The notes under the pieces: model-generated
Databases searched by the model: none
Seen by the model: the letters and a program-made list of their open reading frames with translations, nothing else
What the model was told of the DNA's origin: nothing
Translations under genes and position numbers: made by a program
Part shown: positions 6,927-15,394 of the stretch, piece by piece
Position numbering within the stretch: position 1 is the first letter of the stretch
How the letters are laid out: each line of letters begins with the position of its first letter
Assembly: GCF_010093445.1 (NCBI RefSeq)
Contig: NZ_PDWW01000003.1
Location: 62,001-126,000, forward strand
Length of the DNA stretch: 64,000 nt
Origin: Pseudoxanthomonas japonensis
GTDB taxonomy: Bacteria > Pseudomonadota > Gammaproteobacteria > Xanthomonadales > Xanthomonadaceae
Direction of reading: 5' to 3'

Positions 6927-7499
6927 ATGAGCATCAAGAGCGACCGTTGGATCCGCCGCATGGCCGAGCAGCAGGGCATGATCGAGCCGTTCGAGCCCGG
7001 ACAGGTCAAGCAGGTCAACGGCCAGCGCATCGTCAGCTACGGCACCTCGAGCTACGGCTACGACGTGCGCTGCTCGCGCGAGTTCAAGGTGTTCACCAAC
7101 ATCAACTCCACCATCGTCGACCCCAAGCACTTCGACCCGAAGAGCTTCGTCGACATCGAAGCGGACGAGTGCATCATTCCGCCGAACAGCTTCGCGCTGG
7201 CGCGCACGGTGGAGTTCTTCCGCATCCCGCGCGACACGCTGGTGGTCTGCCTGGGCAAGAGCACGTACGCGCGCTGCGGCATCATCGTCAATGTCACGCC
7301 GCTGGAACCGGAGTGGGAAGGCCACGTGACGCTGGAATTCAGCAACACGACGCCGCTGCCGGCGCGCATCTACGCCAACGAGGGCGTGGCGCAGATGCTG
7401 TTCTTCCAGTCCGATGCCGACGACGTGTGCGAGACCAGCTACAAGGACCGTGGCGGCAAATACCAGGGTCAGACTGGCGTGACGCTGCCGCGTACCTGA
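6927..7499 (+). CDS. dcd: dCTP deaminase
   Basis: A 190-residue enzyme of the trimeric dUTPase/Dcd fold. It deaminates dCTP to dUTP, feeding dUMP and then dTMP synthesis. Length matches the usual 188-193. Family signatures are present: the [10 protein letters not shown] start, [20 protein letters not shown] and the active-site region [12 protein letters not shown] with its catalytic glutamate. The ATG follows a GC-rich leader and a palindromic repeat. It is codirectional with mrp (96-bp gap) and the RDD gene (34-bp gap) and could be transcribed with either. Confidence 0.97.
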
Positions 7500-7533: not shown

Positions 7534-8073
7534 ATGCAAACTCCTCCGCCGATGCCGGAGCACGATCCTTACCGAACGCCAGAGGCACACCTCGTGATGC
7601 CAACCACAGGGCATCAGGAACTGGCCGACCGTTGGGCAAGGCTGGCGGCGGCGCTGATCGATGGCGTCATCGCTTTGGCCGTCATGCTGCCCCTGATGCT
7701 GGCGAGCGGGTACTGGCAGGCCGCGTTCGAGGCCGGCCAATCAGGTGGTTTCGGCTTCATGCCGGTGGGCACGATGGTGCTGTGGGCGGTCATCGGCTTC
7801 GTGCTGTTCGCCGCGATCCAAAGCTATCCGCTGCATGACAGCGGGCAGACCTGGGGCAAGAAGCTGCTGTCTATCAGGATCGTGGACCTGGAGGGACGCA
7901 CGCCGCCGCTGATGGATCTGTTGTTGAAGCGCTACCTGCCCACGCATGCCATCGTCAATGTTCCTTGCGTGGGCGGCCTGTATGCGCTGGTCGATTCGCT
8001 GATGATCTTCCGCCAGGATCAGCGTTGCCTGCATGACCTGATCGCGGGTACGCGCGTCATCCGCGCCGACTGA
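7534..8073 (+). CDS. RDD family membrane protein
   Basis: A 179-residue inner-membrane protein. After a polar, proline-rich N-terminus (~40 residues), the RDD domain has three hydrophobic segments at about 50-72, 78-98 and 140-158. The first carries the Arg and Asp pattern (RWARLAAALIDG) that names the family, and GQTWGKKLLSIRIVD is the conserved inter-helix loop. RDD proteins are widespread and mostly unassigned; some have been linked to ion transport. A good ribosome binding site (GAAAGGAAG) precedes the ATG. It is probably cotranscribed with dcd and ends 15 bp from the convergent pcp gene with no terminator visible between them. Confidence 0.85.
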   Translation: MQTPPPMPEHDPYRTPEAHLVMPTTGHQELADRWARLAAALIDGVIALAVMLPLMLASGYWQAAFEAGQSGGFGFMPVGTMVLWAVIGFVLFAAIQSYPLHDSGQTWGKKLLSIRIVDLEGRTPPLMDLLLKRYLPTHAIVNVPCVGGLYALVDSLMIFRQDQRCLHDLIAGTRVIRAD

Positions 8074-8088
8074 TCGAACCCGACGGGG

Positions 8089-8742
8089 TCAGTGCTCCGC
8101 GCCGGCCGCAAGGCGGGCGTCCGTGCGGGTCTTCAGCGCCACCTGCACTGCCAGGCGCAGTGCTTCCGTCACCGTTTCCACCGCTACGCTGGGCGTGCCG
8201 GCGTGCATCGACGCCTGCGCAGGCGAGTAGGGAATATGGATGAAGCCCGCCCGCACCGCACGCTGGCGCCGCAGTGCGTGCATCAACCCGTAGAACACGT
8301 GGTTGCAGACGTAGGTGCCCGCAGTTTGCGAGACCTCGACAGGAAAACCGGCACCGCGCAACGCCTCGCGCATCGCCTTGATCGGCAGCGTGGAGAAGTA
8401 GGCTGCCGGACCGTCCGCGACCACGGGGGCATCAATCGGCTGCTGGCCCGCGTTGTCGGGAATGCGTGCGTCGTCGACGTTGATCGCCACGCGCTCGAGC
8501 GAAAGCTGCGAACGACCGCCTGCCTGGCCGACGCAGATCGCCAGCGATGGTTGCGTTTCCTTCAGCGCCGCACGCAGGACCTTGAGCGAGGTACCGAAGG
8601 CGACCGGCAACTCGCGGGCCACCACGCGATGTCCCGCGATGCGTGCGCCATGCAGCGCGGACACGGCCAGCCAGCTGGGATTGACCTGTTCGCCCCCGAA
8701 CGGCTGGAAGCCGGTCAGCAGCACGGTGCGCGTCGTCGGCAT
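8089..8742 (-). CDS. pcp: Pyrrolidone-carboxylate peptidase (pyroglutamyl peptidase I)
   Basis: A 217-residue cytosolic cysteine peptidase of family C15 that removes N-terminal pyroglutamate from peptides, releasing 5-oxoproline. The catalytic triad is visible as Glu83 ([11 protein letters not shown]), Cys146 ([11 protein letters not shown]) and His169 (GFIHIPY). The substrate-loop motif [13 protein letters not shown] is at 12-24. It is the last gene of the minus-strand pyroglutamate cluster, 22 bp after the DUF979 gene. Its product is the substrate of the PxpABC enzyme encoded upstream, so the operon couples release and hydrolysis of pyroglutamate. Confidence 0.97.
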
Positions 8743-8764
8743 GGCAAGTCTCGCGGAAGCAGCA

Positions 8765-9730
8765 TCAGCGGAAGCACAGCCACGCCATCAGCAGCACATT
8801 GGTACCCATCAGCCACAAACCGGTCGCGGCCTGCGCGCGGATGACCCCGTACTGGTCGTCCAGTTCCAGCAGCACCGCGGGGACGATGTTGAAGTTCGCC
8901 GCCATCGGCGTGAGCAGCGTGCCGCAGTAGCCGGTCAGCATGCCGATGGCGCCGAGGATGGCGGGATCGGCGCCGTGGCGTTGCACCAGCAGCGGCAGGC
9001 CGATGCCGGCCATCATCACCGGGAACGCAGCAAATGCATTGCCCATGATGATGGTGAACACCACCATGCCCGCCGCGAAGGCCAGCAGGCAGGCCATGCG
9101 GTTGTCGGCCGGAATCACCATCGACACCAGCGATGCGACGGATTCGCCCACCCCGCTGGCCGCGAACACGCCGCCCAGCGTCGCCAGCACCAGTGGCAGC
9201 AGCGCTGCCCACCCCATCGTGTCGAGCAGTCGGCGTCCCTCGTCGGCGGCCCGTAGCGGGGGTTGGCGCGTCACCGCGATCGCCGCGATGGCCGAGATCA
9301 CGCAGGCCAAGGCCAGGCCGACCAGCGTCATGCCGGTGGGCGCGAACAGCGGGGTACCGCCGAAGAACAGATGTGGGCCGGCGAGCACGACGGTGATCGT
9401 CAGCGCCGGGATCAGCAGAGCCGGCACGAACAGGCGGTGGCCCAGCCGCAGCGCGGATGCCAGGCGTTCGGATTCCGGCGCCTCGTTCAGCGGTTCGCGG
9501 CGCATGCGCGTGGCCAGCAGGGCGAGCACCAGCACTGCGCCACCAGCGAACTGTGCCGGCAGGGCATCGCCGGCCTTGCTTGCGCGCAGCACGACGTCGC
9601 CGCCCGCGAACAGCGCCGCGATCACCGTCCAGAACGCGGCGTGCGCGTAGCGGCGCTGCTGCAGGTTGCGCCACCCGGCGTAGGCGAGGAAGGCCGCCAG
9701 TACCCAGTAGAAGTGCTCAATCGACAGCAT
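8765..9730 (-). CDS. DUF979 family membrane protein (candidate pyroglutamate permease half)
   Basis: A 321-residue, very hydrophobic protein with about nine predicted membrane segments. The start MLSIEHFYW was chosen because it overlaps the upstream DUF969 gene by 14 bp and because upstream residues in that frame are arginine-rich and unlike the family. DUF979 and DUF969 proteins almost always occur as adjacent genes. Here they sit between pcp and pxpA. Family knowledge gives no proven function. The inference from context is that the two proteins form a transporter for 5-oxoproline or pyroglutamyl peptides. The conserved segment [14 protein letters not shown] and the glycine-rich [18 protein letters not shown] loop look transporter-like. 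Confidence 0.85.
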
Positions 9731-10418
9731 CGGTCTTCGCCTCCGCTGCCAGAACCGCACGGTCCAGTCGGCGCTGGAACAGGACGATACGCACGGCATG
9801 GATGATGAAGGCCGCGATCGCCGTCGGCAGTGCCCACAGCGCGATCTGCAGCGGCTCCAGCTGGATGCCGTGCTGCGCGTAGAAGCCCTGGATCAGCAGC
9901 ACGGCGCCGAAGGCGAGGAACACGTCCTCACCGAAGAAGCGTCCGATGTTGTCGGTCGCCGCCGACATCGCATGCACGCGCTGCGTTTCCTCACGCGACA
10001 GGGGGGCGCGCGTCTTGCCCGCGGCGGATTCGGCCATCGGCGCCAGCAGCGGTCGCACGGTCTGCGCATGTCCGGCGATATCGATCAGCCCCACCATGCT
10101 CAGCCCTTGCCGCACCAGCAGGTAGCCCGCCAGCAGGCGCGACAGCGTCAGCCCGCGAAGCCGTGCGATCCAGCGCAGCGCATGCTCGCGCAGACCGGCA
10201 CGCTCCAGCAGGCCGATGGTCGGCAGCGTCAGCGCGAACATCAGCAGGGCGCGGTTGGATACGAAGCTCTCGCCCAGCAGCGCGAGCAGGTCCGGAATCG
10301 ACTTGCCTGCCGCCAGCCCGCTGACCAGGCCCGCCGTGACTACCACGATGACCGGATTGAAGCGCAGGACGAAACCCGCCACCACCACCACGATGCCCAG
10401 CAGGGGCCAGTAACTCAT
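9717..10418 (-). CDS. DUF969 family membrane protein (candidate pyroglutamate permease half)
   Basis: A 233-residue integral membrane protein. It starts with a hydrophobic helix pair (MSYWPLLGIVVVVAGF) and carries a central loop with RQGLSMVGLIDIAGHAQTVR and MSAATDNIGRFFGED, both conserved-looking polar motifs inside membrane context. It overlaps pxpA by 4 bp (ATGA, 10415-10418) and DUF979 by 14 bp, so the three should be translated together. The family is unassigned. Its fixed pairing with DUF979, and its place beside pxpABC and pcp, argue that it forms one subunit of a pyroglutamate-related permease. That is an inference, not a demonstrated role. Confidence 0.86.
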   Translation of the reverse strand: MSYWPLLGIVVVVAGFVLRFNPVIVVVTAGLVSGLAAGKSIPDLLALLGESFVSNRALLMFALTLPTIGLLERAGLREHALRWIARLRGLTLSRLLAGYLLVRQGLSMVGLIDIAGHAQTVRPLLAPMAESAAGKTRAPLSREETQRVHAMSAATDNIGRFFGEDVFLAFGAVLLIQGFYAQHGIQLEPLQIALWALPTAIAAFIIHAVRIVLFQRRLDRAVLAAEAKTDAVD

Positions 10419-11167
10419 GCGTGGCGCTCCATGGTGCGGATGGCGAAGCCGTTGGATTCGATGGTCTGTCGCAGTCCGCGCGCGAACGCGGCGGCGTCCG
10501 GTCGGTCGCCGTGCAGGCAGATGCTGTCCGCGCGCAACGGCACGGATTCACCCGTGCGAGCGACCACGATGCCGGCGTCCAGCATCCGCGTGACCTGCGC
10601 CGCGGCCGTCGGCAGATCCTCGATGCTGGCGTCGCTGTGCGTGCGCGGCGTCAACGTGGCGTCGGCCTCGTAGCGACGCTCGGCGAAGGCTTCGTGCGCC
10701 ACCTGCAGGCCGAGCCGTTCTCCGGCGGTCGTCAACGCGCTGCCCGACAAGCCGTACAACACCAGGCCCGTATCGTGGTCGCACACGGCGCGCGCGATGG
10801 CATCGGCTAGGCCGGCGTCGCGGGCCGCCTGGTTGTACAGGGCACCGTGCGGTTTGACGTGGTGGAGGCGCCCGCCGGCGGCCCGAACGAATCCATCCAG
10901 TGCGGCCACCTGGTACAGCGTCAGGGAATACGCTTCTTCCGAAGAAAGGGGGTGCGCGACGCGACCGAAATGCTCGCGGTCCGCGTGCGACGGGTGCGCG
11001 CCGATGGCAACGCCGTGCGCGAGACACAGCGCGACGGTGCGTCGCATGGTGTCCGGCGAACCGGCATGGAAACCGCAGGCGATGCTGGCGGAGCTGATGT
11101 ACGGCAGGATTGCCGCATCGTCGCCGCAGTCTTCGCCCAGGTCGCAGTTGAAGTCGATGGTGCGCAT
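10415..11167 (-). CDS. pxpA: 5-oxoprolinase subunit A (LamB/YcsF family)
   Basis: A 250-residue subunit of the prokaryotic ATP-dependent 5-oxoprolinase PxpABC, which hydrolyses 5-oxoproline to glutamate. The family start is clear (IDFNCDLGEDCGDD), followed by SIACGFHAGSP, GAHPSHADREHFGR and HVKPHGALYNQAA with the expected histidines. Length fits the ~245-255 norm. It lies 15 bp after pxpC and overlaps the DUF969 gene by 4 bp. Older annotations call it a lactam utilisation protein LamB. Confidence 0.96.
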   Translation of the reverse strand: MRTIDFNCDLGEDCGDDAAILPYISSASIACGFHAGSPDTMRRTVALCLAHGVAIGAHPSHADREHFGRVAHPLSSEEAYSLTLYQVAALDGFVRAAGGRLHHVKPHGALYNQAARDAGLADAIARAVCDHDTGLVLYGLSGSALTTAGERLGLQVAHEAFAERRYEADATLTPRTHSDASIEDLPTAAAQVTRMLDAGIVVARTGESVPLRADSICLHGDRPDAAAFARGLRQTIESNGFAIRTMERHA

Positions 11168-11182
11168 GCCCGCGAGCCTACC

Positions 11183-12136
11183 TCAGGCCTGCACGCGCTG
11201 CGCAATGGCGATGCGCAGCCGCGCGAGGCGGTACGCATGTTCCCTGGCCAGCGATCGGGCCTGGTCCAGCGTGACCGGTTCGAAGTGCACCGGTTCGCCG
11301 GGGCGCAACTGCGCGGCGCGCCCCAGGTCGCAGGCGATCACATGGCCCAGTCGCGGATAGCCGCCCACCGTCTGTGCGTCGGCCAGCAGCAGGATGGGCT
11401 GTCCGTCGGGCGGCAGTTGCAGCGTGCCGACGGCGACCGGTTCGGACACGCCGTCGCCTGTTCCCGCGGGCAATCCGGTGCCACGCAGCCGCACGCCCTG
11501 ACGATTGCTGTTCGGGTGCGTACGCCAGACCTGAGCGGCCAGCATGAGGGCGGCCGGAAGCGCGGACGGCACGTAGCGCAGGACGTGGCGATCCGCCGTC
11601 CATGGGTCGTCCACGTCGATCCACCATGCGGGAAAGGCGGGTTGCCGCGCGATGGCAACCTCCCTGCGGACCTCGCCGACAGGCAGGCGATCGCCGGTGG
11701 CCAACGCGCGTCCGTCCACGCCGCCGAACCCGCCGCGGAGATCGGTGCTGCGGCTGCCGAGCACGGCGGGTGTCGCGATGCCGCCCGCCACGGCGAGCCA
11801 GGCCCGCGCGCCATCGCGCAAGGGGCCGAGCGCGAGCTCGCCTGCGGGCAGATCGATGGGTCGCCCCATCGGCAGCGGCACATCATTCCACCGCGCCTGC
11901 ACCGTGGCGCCGGTCAGCGCGATGCGGCAGGCACGCGGCAACCGCAGGCGGGGACCTTGCAGTGCGATCTCCAGTCCCGCCGCGCCTTCATCGTTGCCGA
12001 CCAGCCGGTTCGCCATCGCCAGGGCGGAGGGATCCATCGCGCCGGCACGCGCCACGCCAAGATGGCGCCAGCCGTGGCGCCCCTGGTCCTGCACCGTCGT
12101 CTGCACGCCGGGCGACAGCACCTGCCACGCGCTCAT
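11183..12136 (-). CDS. pxpC: 5-oxoprolinase subunit C (biotin-dependent carboxyltransferase-like)
   Basis: A 317-residue protein of the allophanate-hydrolase subunit 2/KipA-like family. The motifs LSPGVQTTVQDQGRHGWRHL at the N-terminus and GAMDPSALAMANRLVGN are diagnostic. The ATG at 12136 was chosen because it starts four residues before this motif and overlaps the pxpB stop (ATGA, 12133-12136), as is usual for this pair. PxpC works with PxpB and PxpA to hydrolyse 5-oxoproline in the cytosol. A GGYPRLGHVIACDLG motif near the C-terminus fits the fold. Confidence 0.95.
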   Translation of the reverse strand: MSAWQVLSPGVQTTVQDQGRHGWRHLGVARAGAMDPSALAMANRLVGNDEGAAGLEIALQGPRLRLPRACRIALTGATVQARWNDVPLPMGRPIDLPAGELALGPLRDGARAWLAVAGGIATPAVLGSRSTDLRGGFGGVDGRALATGDRLPVGEVRREVAIARQPAFPAWWIDVDDPWTADRHVLRYVPSALPAALMLAAQVWRTHPNSNRQGVRLRGTGLPAGTGDGVSEPVAVGTLQLPPDGQPILLLADAQTVGGYPRLGHVIACDLGRAAQLRPGEPVHFEPVTLDQARSLAREHAYRLARLRIAIAQRVQA

Positions 12137-12831
12137 GGCGACGCTGCCAGGTGGCGGAACGTGGCTTCGTCGATCGGCACGAAACGCACCCGGTCGCCGG
12201 GTTGCAGCAGTGCAGGCTGCGCGCGGCCTGCATCGAACAGCATCGCAGGCGTTCGCCCCAGCAAGCGCCATCCTCCGGGGCTTTCGCGCGGATAGATGCC
12301 GGCCTGCGCGCCGCCGATCGCAACCGAACCGGCCGGCACCCGCGTGCATGGCGTCGCCAGCCGTGGCAGCGCCAATGCCGGATCCAGCCCGAGCAGATAA
12401 GGAAAGCCCGGTGCGAAGCCGATCATCGCCACCGTGTAAACGGGTGCGCTGTGGCGCGCGATCAGCGACGCCGTATCGCATCCCAGCGTCTGCGCCGCGT
12501 CGATGAGGTCCTCGCCGTATTCGCCGCCGTAGCACACGGGAATCTCGTGCAGCCCGGTGTCGCCGACGGATCGCGATGAGGGATCGGCAAGCAGGGCTTC
12601 AACCGATTCACGTACGACCGCATGCGCATCGCTGGCCGGCGCATGGTCGGTATCGAAGAACACCGCCAGGCTGGCGTAGGCCGGCACCAGATCGCGCAGC
12701 CACGGCGGCGAGCGGTCGCGCAGCCGCGCCGCCAGCGTGTGCACCTGCGCATTGGTCTCCGCCTCGATGCGCTCGCCGAAGCGCACCAGCAGGGCATCGT
12801 CGCCGAGCGGTTCGAAGCGCGGCGTGCTCAT
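12133..12831 (-). CDS. pxpB: 5-oxoprolinase subunit B (KipI-like)
   Basis: A 232-residue protein of the allophanate hydrolase subunit 1/KipI family. It begins FEPLGDDALLVRFG and contains the characteristic IPVCYGGEYGEDL and GFAPGFPYLLGLDPALALPR motifs, followed by GSVAIGGAQAGIYPRESPGG. Length is normal for PxpB. The start at 12831 overlaps the HIT gene stop by 4 bp and the end overlaps pxpC by 4 bp, so translation is coupled on both sides. It forms the nucleotide-dependent 5-oxoprolinase with PxpA and PxpC. A related B. subtilis protein inhibits a sporulation kinase, but the gene set here points to the enzyme role. Confidence 0.95.
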   Translation of the reverse strand: MSTPRFEPLGDDALLVRFGERIEAETNAQVHTLAARLRDRSPPWLRDLVPAYASLAVFFDTDHAPASDAHAVVRESVEALLADPSSRSVGDTGLHEIPVCYGGEYGEDLIDAAQTLGCDTASLIARHSAPVYTVAMIGFAPGFPYLLGLDPALALPRLATPCTRVPAGSVAIGGAQAGIYPRESPGGWRLLGRTPAMLFDAGRAQPALLQPGDRVRFVPIDEATFRHLAASP

Positions 12832-13235
12832 GCCAGGCGCAGGCGCCAGCGCTCGATCCCGGCAGCCAGTTGTTCCGGCGTATGGCGGACAGCATGCCCA
12901 TTGCCCCACACCGGTCCCGGCCACGCCGCATCGCCGTCACGACGCCCGACCAGGTGCACATGCAGCTGCCGCACGATGTTGCCGAGTGCGCCGATGTTGA
13001 GTTTCTCCACGCCGGGAGTCGCGCGGATCAACTGGCCGGCCTGGTTGATCTCCGCCAGCAGCAGGCGCTGCTGGCCGCCATCCAGGTCCAGCCATTCGCT
13101 GGCGCCATTCACGCGCGGCACCAGCACCAGCCAGGGATAGCGGGTGTCGTCCATCAATCGCACCTGCGACAGCGGGCCGTCGGCGATGAAGGCACTGTCG
13201 GCGGCCAGGCGCGGGTCGAGCAGGAAATCGGTCAT
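12828..13235 (-). CDS. HIT domain protein
   Basis: A 135-residue histidine-triad superfamily protein. The triad region reads QLHVHLVGRR (residues ~91-100), where the first His of the usual HxHxH is Gln, as in a proteobacterial HIT subfamily. The upstream TRYPWLVLVPRVNG strand and WLDLDGGQQRLLLAEINQAG helix match that subfamily. HIT proteins hydrolyse or transfer nucleotides, but this subfamily has no assigned substrate that I can name. It overlaps both neighbours by 4 bp (dienelactone hydrolase-like upstream, pxpB downstream), so it is built into the pyroglutamate operon. The functional link is unexplained. Confidence 0.85.
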   Translation of the reverse strand: MTDFLLDPRLAADSAFIADGPLSQVRLMDDTRYPWLVLVPRVNGASEWLDLDGGQQRLLLAEINQAGQLIRATPGVEKLNIGALGNIVRQLHVHLVGRRDGDAAWPGPVWGNGHAVRHTPEQLAAGIERWRLRLA

Positions 13236-13894
13236 GCGAGGTTCCGGGTGAAGAAGTCGAGCGTGCGCTCGCGTGCGAGCCGCGCACTGGATGGCTCGTA
13301 GTCCGCGCGCAGGTCGCAGTTGAAGCCATGCCCGGCCGGGTAGGTGAAGACCTCCATCCCGGGCAGCGCGTCGCGATGGGCCTGCACCATGTCCGGCGGG
13401 ATCGAGGCGTCCTGTTCGCCGAAATGGAACATCACCGGCGCACGCGGTGGTTCGTCGAGGAACGGCAGATTGCCCGCCCCGTAGTAACTGACCGACGGCA
13501 GTCCGATCCGCAGCGCCGCCAGCAGGGCGACGGTGCCGCCCCAGCAGTAGCCGACCGTGCCGACGCGGTGATGCGAAGCCGCCAGTGCATTGGCGGCGGC
13601 ATGCGTGATGTCGTTGGCCCGCTCGAGTCCGACGGCGGCTTTCAGTGCCTGCCCGCGTTCGACGCCGTCGGCGTCGTAGGCGAGTTCCACGCCAGGCTCG
13701 ACGACATCGAAACAGGCCGGCGCCAGCACCGCGTAGCCCTCCAGCGCAAACCCTTCGGCGACGCTGCGGATATGCGCGTTCACGCCGAAGATTTCCTGCA
13801 CCACGACCAGGGCGCCGCGCGGCGCGCCGGCCGGATCGGCCTGCCAGGCCGCGATGCGGCCGTGCGGTGTATCGAGGGTGGTCCAGTGGCCCAT
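13232..13894 (-). CDS. Dienelactone hydrolase family protein
   Basis: A 221-residue cytosolic alpha/beta hydrolase. The Cys-Asp-His triad of the family is visible: Cys117 in GYCWGG, Asp162 in FGEQDASIP and His189 in YPAGHGFNC, with Glu34 in the VVQEIFGVN motif. Length fits carboxymethylenebutenolidase-like enzymes, which hydrolyse lactones or esters; the real substrate is unknown here. The ATG at 13894 was preferred because the family core starts right after it. As the first gene of an eight-gene minus-strand run with 4-bp overlaps, its promoter region (13895-14032) is shared divergently with rimO. Confidence 0.9.
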   Translation of the reverse strand: MGHWTTLDTPHGRIAAWQADPAGAPRGALVVVQEIFGVNAHIRSVAEGFALEGYAVLAPACFDVVEPGVELAYDADGVERGQALKAAVGLERANDITHAAANALAASHHRVGTVGYCWGGTVALLAALRIGLPSVSYYGAGNLPFLDEPPRAPVMFHFGEQDASIPPDMVQAHRDALPGMEVFTYPAGHGFNCDLRADYEPSSARLARERTLDFFTRNLA

Positions 13895-13991
13895 GCGGTC
13901 AGTGTATGCCGGCGCCAGGGGCGACCCAAGGACGGCGTGCACCTGTCTGCCCGCCTGAACGCGCATTCCGGGCCAGACGAAGGCGGGAGGC

Positions 13992-13997
13992 TATAAT
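13992..13997 (+). promoter_or_regulatory. -10 box for rimO
   Basis: A perfect TATAAT lies 35 bp before the rimO ATG, in the divergent gap with the dienelactone hydrolase-like gene. No convincing -35 hexamer is seen at 16-18 bp. GGAGGC immediately before the box may act as an extended element. Confidence 0.5.
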
Positions 13998-14032
13998 CCG
14001 CGCCCCGTACACGCCGCCGCCGTACCGTCTCC

Positions 14033-15394
14033 ATGTCCCTGCAGAACCCCAAAGTCGGCTTCGTCAGCCTCGGCTGCCCGAAGGCCCTGGTCGACTCCGA
14101 GCGCATCCTCACCCAGCTGCGCGTGGAGGGCTACGACATCGTGCCGACCTACGACGCGGCGGACGTGGTGGTGGTGAATACCTGCGGCTTCATCGATTCG
14201 GCCGTGGCCGAGTCGCTGGATGCCATCGGCGAGGCGATGAACGCGAACGGCAAGGTCATCGTCACCGGCTGCCTGGGCAAGCGTCCGGAGCAGATCCGCG
14301 AGCAATACCCGGACGTGCTGGCGATCAGCGGTCCGCAGGACTACCAGAGCGTGATGGAGGCGCTGCATGAAGCGCTGCCGCCGAAGCACGATCCGTTCGT
14401 GGACCTGGTGCCGGACTATGGCATCAAGCTGACCCCGCGCCACTACGCCTATCTGAAGATATCCGAAGGCTGCAACCACCGCTGCAGCTTCTGCATCATT
14501 CCGTCGATGCGCGGCGACTTGGTGTCGCGTCCGGTCGATGACGTGCTGCGCGAAGCCGAGCGGCTGGTGCGCGGCGGTGTGAAGGAACTGCTGGTGGTCT
14601 CGCAGGACACGTCGGCCTACGGCGTGGACGTGAAGTACGCCGAGCGCGAGTGGCGCGGCAAGGCCTACCAGACCCGCATGAAGGCGCTGTGCGAAGGCCT
14701 GGGCGAGCTCGATGCCTGGGTGCGCCTGCATTACGTCTATCCGTATCCGCACGTCGACGACATCGTGCCGCTGATGGCGGAGAACAAGGTGCTGCCGTAC
14801 CTGGACATTCCGTTTCAGCACGCCAGCCCGCGCATCCTCAAACTGATGAAGCGCCCGGGTGCGGTCGACAAGACGCTGGAGCGCGTGAAGCGCTGGCGTT
14901 CGATCTGCCCCGACATCACGCTGCGCTCGACCTTCATCGTCGGCTTTCCCGGTGAGACGGACCAGGAGTTCGAAGAACTGCTGCAGTTCCTCGACGAAGC
15001 GCAGCTCGACCGCGTCGGCGCGTTCGCCTATTCGCCGGTCGACGGCGCCGCGGCCAACCTGCTGCCCAACCCCGTGCCGGAAGAGGTCAAGCAGGAGCGC
15101 CTGGCGCGTTTCATGGAGAAGCAGGCGGAGATCTCCGCCGCGCGCCTGGAAGCGAAGATCGGCACCGTGCAACAGTGCCTGGTCGACCTGATCGAAGACG
15201 ACATCGCCGTGGCGCGCTCCAAGGCCGATGCGCCGGAGATCGATGGCCTGGTGCATATCCAGAACGGTGGCGAACTGGGCCTGCGCGTCGGCCAGTTCGT
15301 CGACGTGGAGATCACCGAGAGCGACGAGCACGACCTGATCGGCGATGCCATCGTCGAGACGGCGGGTGCGCCGCTCGATCTCAAGGTGCTGTGA
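14033..15394 (+). CDS. rimO: Ribosomal protein S12 methylthiotransferase RimO
   Basis: A 453-residue radical SAM enzyme that adds a methylthio group to an aspartate of ribosomal protein S12. The N-terminal MTTase domain has Cys15 ([11 protein letters not shown], the RimO signature), Cys51 (NTCGFIDSA) and Cys80 ([10 protein letters not shown]) for one 4Fe-4S cluster. The radical SAM cluster Cys147, Cys151 and Cys154 lies in [12 protein letters not shown]-terminal TRAM domain ([11 protein letters not shown] onwards) completes it. The VDSE motif distinguishes RimO from MiaB. The DUF3025 gene overlaps its end (GTGA). Confidence 0.97.

Follow-up and report, generated by a model that had tools for sequence, protein, structure and literature searches.

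The present analysis suggests that a run of eight genes in Pseudoxanthomonas japonensis, which has the appearance of a single pyroglutamate (5-oxoproline) pathway, consists of two modules. The run was studied in a stretch of 64,000 nucleotides (contig NZ_PDWW01000003.1, positions 62,001 to 126,000), hereafter called the window. We propose, with a probability of roughly 0.83, that two of its genes, encoding a dienelactone hydrolase (DLH)-family protein and a histidine triad (HIT) protein, form a pair that is resident at this site, that the pxp genes behind them are a neighbor that comes and goes, and that DLH and HIT are not members of the pathway. In our model, the first module would be the DLH-HIT pair, located between rimO and dcd and kept with or without pyroglutamate genes. 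The second would be a six-gene cassette (pxpB-pxpC-pxpA-DUF969-DUF979-pcp) that, depending on the lineage, fills the gap between HIT and dcd, is absent, or lies elsewhere. In the window, both are probably read as one transcript. The genes of the run and their flanks are as follows:

14033 to 15394, plus strand: rimO, the left-hand flank, divergent from DLH
13232 to 13894, minus strand: DLH-family alpha/beta hydrolase of 220 amino acids, first gene of the run (Pfam DLH, 7.3e-34)
12828 to 13235, minus strand: HIT protein of 135 amino acids, a QxHxH variant with Q90, H92 and H94 (Pfam HIT, 3.6e-9)
12133 to 12831, minus strand: pxpB, 5-oxoprolinase subunit (Pfam CT_C_D, 4e-69; TIGR00370 above cut-off)
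11183 to 12136, minus strand: pxpC, 5-oxoprolinase subunit (Pfam CT_A_B, 3.1e-79; TIGR00724)
10415 to 11167, minus strand: pxpA, 5-oxoprolinase subunit (Pfam LamB_YcsF, 5.3e-87; NF003814 and NF003816 above cut-off)
9717 to 10418, minus strand: DUF969 protein, likely one half of a 5-oxoproline transporter (Pfam DUF969, 7.3e-82)
8765 to 9730, minus strand: DUF979 protein, likely the other transporter half (Pfam DUF979, 6e-98)
8089 to 8742, minus strand: pcp, pyroglutamyl-peptidase I (Pfam Peptidase_C15, 5.1e-77)
7534 to 8073, plus strand: RDD-family gene, convergent with pcp (15 nt between the stops), the far edge of the occupied gap
6927 to 7499, plus strand: the right-hand flank, taken to be dcd, which faces HIT in many cassette-free genomes

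All eight gene names are backed by Pfam matches. The original prediction had placed eight genes in one direction between 8089 and 13894, with overlaps of 4 bp at four junctions and of 14 bp at a fifth, and with gaps of 15 and 22 bp at the other two; indeed, eight minus-strand open reading frames occupy this span, and all seven junctions agree (DLH/HIT, −4; HIT/pxpB, −4; pxpB/pxpC, −4; pxpC/pxpA, +15; pxpA/DUF969, −4; DUF969/DUF979, −14; DUF979/pcp, +22). The identical eight-gene order is found in four named Pseudoxanthomonas genomes (L192, L193, L194 and L196), and therefore, the run is no assembly accident; L194 has an additional DUF885 gene after pcp. The closest named relatives of the window belong to Pseudoxanthomonas, and its rimO and dcd proteins are 96 to 98% and 98 to 99% identical, respectively, to those of P. 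mexicana, strains PXM01, PXM02, 3HH-4, and the metagenome-assembled genome (MAG) Gammapro3.

The evidence for two modules comes, in the first place, from a survey of 119 genomes of the window's family, 108 of which are of good quality (DLH threshold, E ≤ 1e-25). HIT was matched in 116 genomes (108/108 of good quality) and DLH in 110 (103/108), and pxpB was found in 53 (48/108). DLH lies immediately upstream of HIT in each of the 110 genomes that have both, and the pair is retained in 61 of the 63 genomes that have HIT and no pxpB. Dedicated enzymes would be expected to stay linked only alongside pxp, and this is not what the family shows; hence, the original prediction of HIT and DLH as unexplained members of the pathway finds no support here. 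Within the family, pxp is nearly always located behind HIT, but HIT and DLH are independent of pxp.

Gene maps of single loci give the same picture. We mapped 48 other linked loci of the family, 40 of its 63 loci without pxpB, 25 HIT loci from other families of the order, and 14 pxp loci not linked to HIT; the 40 empty, the 25 order and the 14 unlinked loci were picked by hand. Past HIT, the maps of 38 of the 40 empty family loci continue with a convergent dcd or rdd, and no gene was mapped beyond HIT in the other two. In two empty Pseudoxanthomonas sites, those of P. mexicana and MAG Gammapro3, the HIT stop is 15 and 16 nt from the dcd match. In the occupied family loci, the cassette fills this gap, and dcd follows within the fetched stretch in 31 of 48; in the other 17, it is out of view because of a contig end or too large a distance. 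The maps show the complete set of six cassette genes in 34 of the 53 occupied loci (48 from the family and 5 from the order); the other 19 end at contig or region edges or are without some of the genes. Three occupied loci (L041, L071 and L072, the last from a genome of 72% completeness) have no DLH between rimO and HIT and retain HIT and pxp. Furthermore, the cassette also stands by itself: 8 of the 14 unlinked loci (L145-L147, L149-L151, L156 and L157) carry all six genes with neither DLH nor HIT in the stretch. In the other six, no more than two or three kinds of pxp gene are present; among these loci, L155 has three pxp genes and, 3.8 kb away on the opposite strand, a weak match to the DLH family (34%).

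Two side observations were made on these maps. Eleven of the 48 occupied family loci (L032, at 11911 to 13695, L034, L036, L051, L055, L057, L069, L070, L073, L077 and L078) have a DUF885 gene with the cassette, in ten of them after pxpC (with pxpA next in nine) and in one after pcp. Of the 40 empty family loci, a single one (L110) has DUF885 near HIT, and the genome of the window has five DUF885 matches, all elsewhere. DUF885, perhaps a peptidase, is a better candidate for a cassette accessory than DLH or HIT. Separately, the empty HIT-dcd gap of genome G117 (L080) measures 409 nt and has 50% GC within a locus of 66% GC; nine other empty sites compared with it have gaps of 24 to 803 nt with 64 to 71% GC.

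Outside the family, the two modules come apart further. The order sample comprised 121 genomes, 102 of them from other families (HIT, E ≤ 1e-10; DLH, E ≤ 1e-25; pxpB, E ≤ 1e-20). DLH directly precedes HIT in 33 of the 34 extra-family genomes that have both. pxpB was matched in 41 of the 102 genomes; five of these have no HIT match at E ≤ 1e-10, and among the 36 with both HIT and pxpB, pxpB follows HIT immediately in 5 and does not in 31. In the class sample (274 genomes, 3 of them from the window's own family), pxpB was found in 25, HIT in 100 and both in 15 genomes of other families. HIT and pxpB are linked in none of these 15: in 4, they lie on the same contig more than 250 kb apart, and in 11 on separate contigs. 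No match to the window's DLH was found near HIT in 20 class loci (about 5 kb on each side, 3 stretches being shorter; tblastn, E ≤ 1e-4), which were chosen mostly as high-ranking matches from the 100 HIT-positive genomes; DLH itself was not searched class-wide. Among 35 named loci, DLH stands beside HIT in all 20 from Lysobacterales, and of the other 15, 14, several of them on short contigs, have HIT but no DLH, and one (L226) has no mapped gene. As far as sampled, DLH-HIT is thus a trait of the family and of part of the order, and the HIT-pxpB linkage is mainly a family trait. The survey of HIT and DLH next to pxpABC that had been suggested with the original prediction gave a largely negative answer: the order and class genomes with both HIT and pxpB mostly lack the linkage, but five genomes of other families have it, so that it is not confined to close relatives. 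HIT and DLH are largely unassociated with pxp beyond close relatives.

Several observations weigh against a separation of DLH and HIT from the pathway. In the family, pxpB lies immediately after HIT in 49 of the 53 genomes that have it, a position far from random; the four exceptions comprise two weak or fragmentary matches (G030 and G092) and two genomes with pxpB elsewhere (G114 and G034). Five genomes from other families have the linkage as well. The pair itself is not universal beyond the family, with HIT in 55 and DLH in 36 of the 102 order genomes and DLH before HIT in only 13 of the 19 that have HIT and no pxpB. Where HIT and pxpB are on separate contigs, in the class as in the order, adjacency over a contig break is not strictly excluded. 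Furthermore, in 2 of the 31 order genomes without pxpB behind HIT, the cassette sits just before the pair: G448 (L138) and G442 (L139), both from another family, have the order pxpB-pxpC-pxpA-DUF969-DUF979-pcp-DLH-HIT, and a possible DLH start in G448 is 28 nt past the pcp stop. Among the nine genomes of that family, DLH adjoins HIT in seven, and pxpB is present in six and linked to DLH in two of these. One arrangement may be a circularly permuted form of the other, or the two modules may have come together independently, and the case keeps a loose functional link alive as a possibility.

A rival reading gives HIT and DLH an accessory role in pyroglutamate metabolism. The two proteins could, for example, remove a PxpABC side product that is adenylylated or phosphorylated, or open a related lactam or lactone, which would fit the full coupling of the eight genes in the window, the near-constant place of pxpB behind HIT, the linked genomes of other families and the permuted order, likewise tight, of G448 and G442. 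We nevertheless regard such a role as very unlikely: the pair persists in nearly all family genomes that lack pxpB, most order genomes and every class genome with both genes have pxpB away from HIT, full cassettes stand alone in more than half of the fetched unlinked loci, and five order genomes have pxpB and no HIT match. It is also imaginable that DLH and HIT are facultative 5-oxoproline helpers, clearing side products of glutamate or its cyclised forms in every cell and, hence, repeatedly joined to the pxp transcript on either side; this idea, too, appears improbable to us. A literature link of HIT or DLH with pxp was not found in open-licence PMC papers.

If the run consists of two modules, the close spacing in the window may have a reason other than shared enzyme function. 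In Pseudoxanthomonas, the cassette would presumably be read from the DLH promoter, because the HIT stop and the pxpB start overlap, and ribosomes leaving HIT would aid its translation. A scan of 7900 to 14300 found no sigma-70-like site (shuffle mean, 0.6), and because of this, it is spacing alone that points to co-transcription of the eight genes, a further point on the opposing side. The terminator scan of the same region gave two terminator-like sites against a shuffle mean of 2.3, none of them above the shuffles. We give even odds to the proposal, compatible with two modules, that adjacency is kept for the DLH promoter and translational coupling. Of the 49 linked family genomes, 46 have 5 to 133 nt between the aligned segments of HIT and pxpB (the others being −1, in the window, 220 and 338), and the HIT stop is embedded in ATGA in all five occupied Pseudoxanthomonas loci inspected, which permits the 4-bp overlap with pxpB. 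On the other hand, the scan gave no promoter-like site, and unlinked cassettes exist, so the DLH promoter is not required.

How the cassette came to be distributed in this way was addressed with a quick tree of the flanking genes rimO, dcd, mrp and greB from 91 genomes, in which the state "none" means that no cassette directly follows HIT (some such genomes have pxp elsewhere); proteins beyond set length bounds were excluded before trees were made, with a 70% length floor for the genus tree. The state "cassette directly after HIT" requires at least 21 changes on the flank-gene tree, 11 of them forced by starred branches. The nearest neighbor of the window in this tree, G117 (96% identical), has no pxpB and keeps DLH-HIT. 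At the genus level, 5 of 21 rows are occupied, and four changes are needed, two of which are forced by starred branches. However, a single clade of the occupied Pseudoxanthomonas rows was not rejected (approximately unbiased [AU] test, p 0.085), which again speaks for the other side, and the claim of repeated change within the genus was dropped. The pxp genes of the window had also been suspected of recent horizontal acquisition, since pxpB of the window is 60% identical to that of its genus-mate G063, compared with 83% for HIT. However, a quick tree of pxpBC joins the window with G063 (98*) and thus gives no indication of such a recent transfer into its lineage.

Counts of change do not separate gain from loss. 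We lean somewhat toward a cassette that was ancestral at the HIT-dcd site and was lost many times, rather than gained repeatedly by recombination via conserved flanks; either course would be compatible with a resident pair and a cassette that comes and goes. An ancestral cassette would account for its identical position behind HIT in the window's family and in the five genomes of other families, whose maps have rimO before DLH in four and dcd after the cassette in three, and for the joining of the window with a member of its own genus in the pxpBC tree. In the same tree, G042 falls outside the starred 26-row group that contains the window, and linked cassettes of other families do not separate from unlinked ones, both of which count against an ancestral cassette; the group labeled "order" there also contains cassettes from the window's own family, namely the unlinked ones of G114, G034 and G014.

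HIT and DLH both look like active enzymes. The HIT protein scores 37.6 bits against a Pfam HIT cut-off of 21.5 and has the second histidine of the triad, which is the catalytic residue. The full HxHxH triad is absent: the first motif position is Gln in all of the 114 aligned sequences, with H92 in 114 and H94 in 113 of them. Four structures match the protein (3nrd, 3i4s, 3ohe and 3i24; E values of 5.2e-32 to 4.5e-24), and the alignments with 3nrd and 3i4s have the QLHVH motif and a WPxPVWG stretch in common with it. The Pfam score above cut-off and the Gln common to these two structures therefore place it in a QxHxH subgroup. Because the second triad His is kept, we infer hydrolysis of nucleotidyl conjugates as its most likely activity. 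In DLH, Cys117 is conserved in 112/112, Asp162 in 111/112 and His189 in 112/112 aligned sequences, and because this Cys-Asp-His set is kept, the enzyme would most likely hydrolyze an ester, lactone or thioester. The dienelactone hydrolase 1din matches it (E = 8.4e-25), with the Cys of GYCxGG and the His of AGHxF aligned. The Arg of 1din four residues after this His falls on Cys193 of the window's DLH; we take it to be the substrate-binding Arg206, and therefore, dienelactone may be an unlikely substrate. The genome of the window has 13 DLH-family matches in total. Both proteins may serve in a general clean-up of metabolites, untied to pyroglutamate. If HIT and DLH did act in the pathway after all, this would be a first physiological role for the QxHxH subgroup, whose structures list no substrate in their molecule names.

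The cassette itself is a known bacterial set for the uptake and hydrolysis of 5-oxoproline, and the locus is, in this respect, largely ordinary. Matches to the pxpA, pxpB and pxpC families are adjacent on a single strand, and judged by these matches, PxpABC would be a putative ATP-dependent enzyme for the conversion of 5-oxoproline to glutamate. In the NCBIfam search, PxpC was recognized by the broader TIGR00724 (242.9 bits; cut-off, 230.2), with the equivalog NF045499 below its cut-off (233.4 versus 500), and PxpA by the two subfamily models, with three PxpA equivalog models below their cut-offs; HIT, DUF969 and DUF979 gave no match in this search, and DLH gave only one far below cut-off. Both transporter families adjoin each other beside pxp. 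Pcp frees pyroglutamate from the N-termini of peptides. That Pcp and PxpABC belong to one pathway, as originally predicted, is supported, with DUF969 and DUF979 included. DUF969 and DUF979 would import 5-oxoproline, Pcp would release it from peptide N-termini, and PxpABC would open it to glutamate with ATP.

The locus illustrates that an apparent one-pathway run can be two modules having separate histories, and it argues that gene neighborhood is no ground for annotating HIT and DLH as enzymes of pyroglutamate metabolism. The six-gene part is a known kind of set. PxpABC is said, reportedly by Niehaus et al. in 2017, to be the prokaryotic 5-oxoprolinase, and the same three subunit families are adjacent and in one direction in the window. 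From operon context, DUF969/DUF979 was proposed as a 5-oxoproline transporter, and a heteromer was predicted; PxpABC operons are cited there as containing both families, as in the window (PMC11467057). A Campylobacter jejuni cj0552-4 mutant, affected in both DUF969 and DUF979, lost the use of 5-oxoproline as a nitrogen source in a preliminary growth experiment; the families are the same as in the window and are encoded there with DUF2891 (PMC12795558). By analogy, DUF969 and DUF979 are likely the two halves of the transporter in P. japonensis. The pxpTABC operon of Corynebacterium glutamicum also combines 5-oxoprolinase and dedicated uptake within one operon, but it differs in its transporter PxpT, of the APC superfamily, and its regulator PxpR, and HIT and DLH go unmentioned in the excerpted text (PMC13274462). 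Unlike described PxpABC operons, the window has the order B-C-A, with pcp last and the DLH-HIT pair in front.

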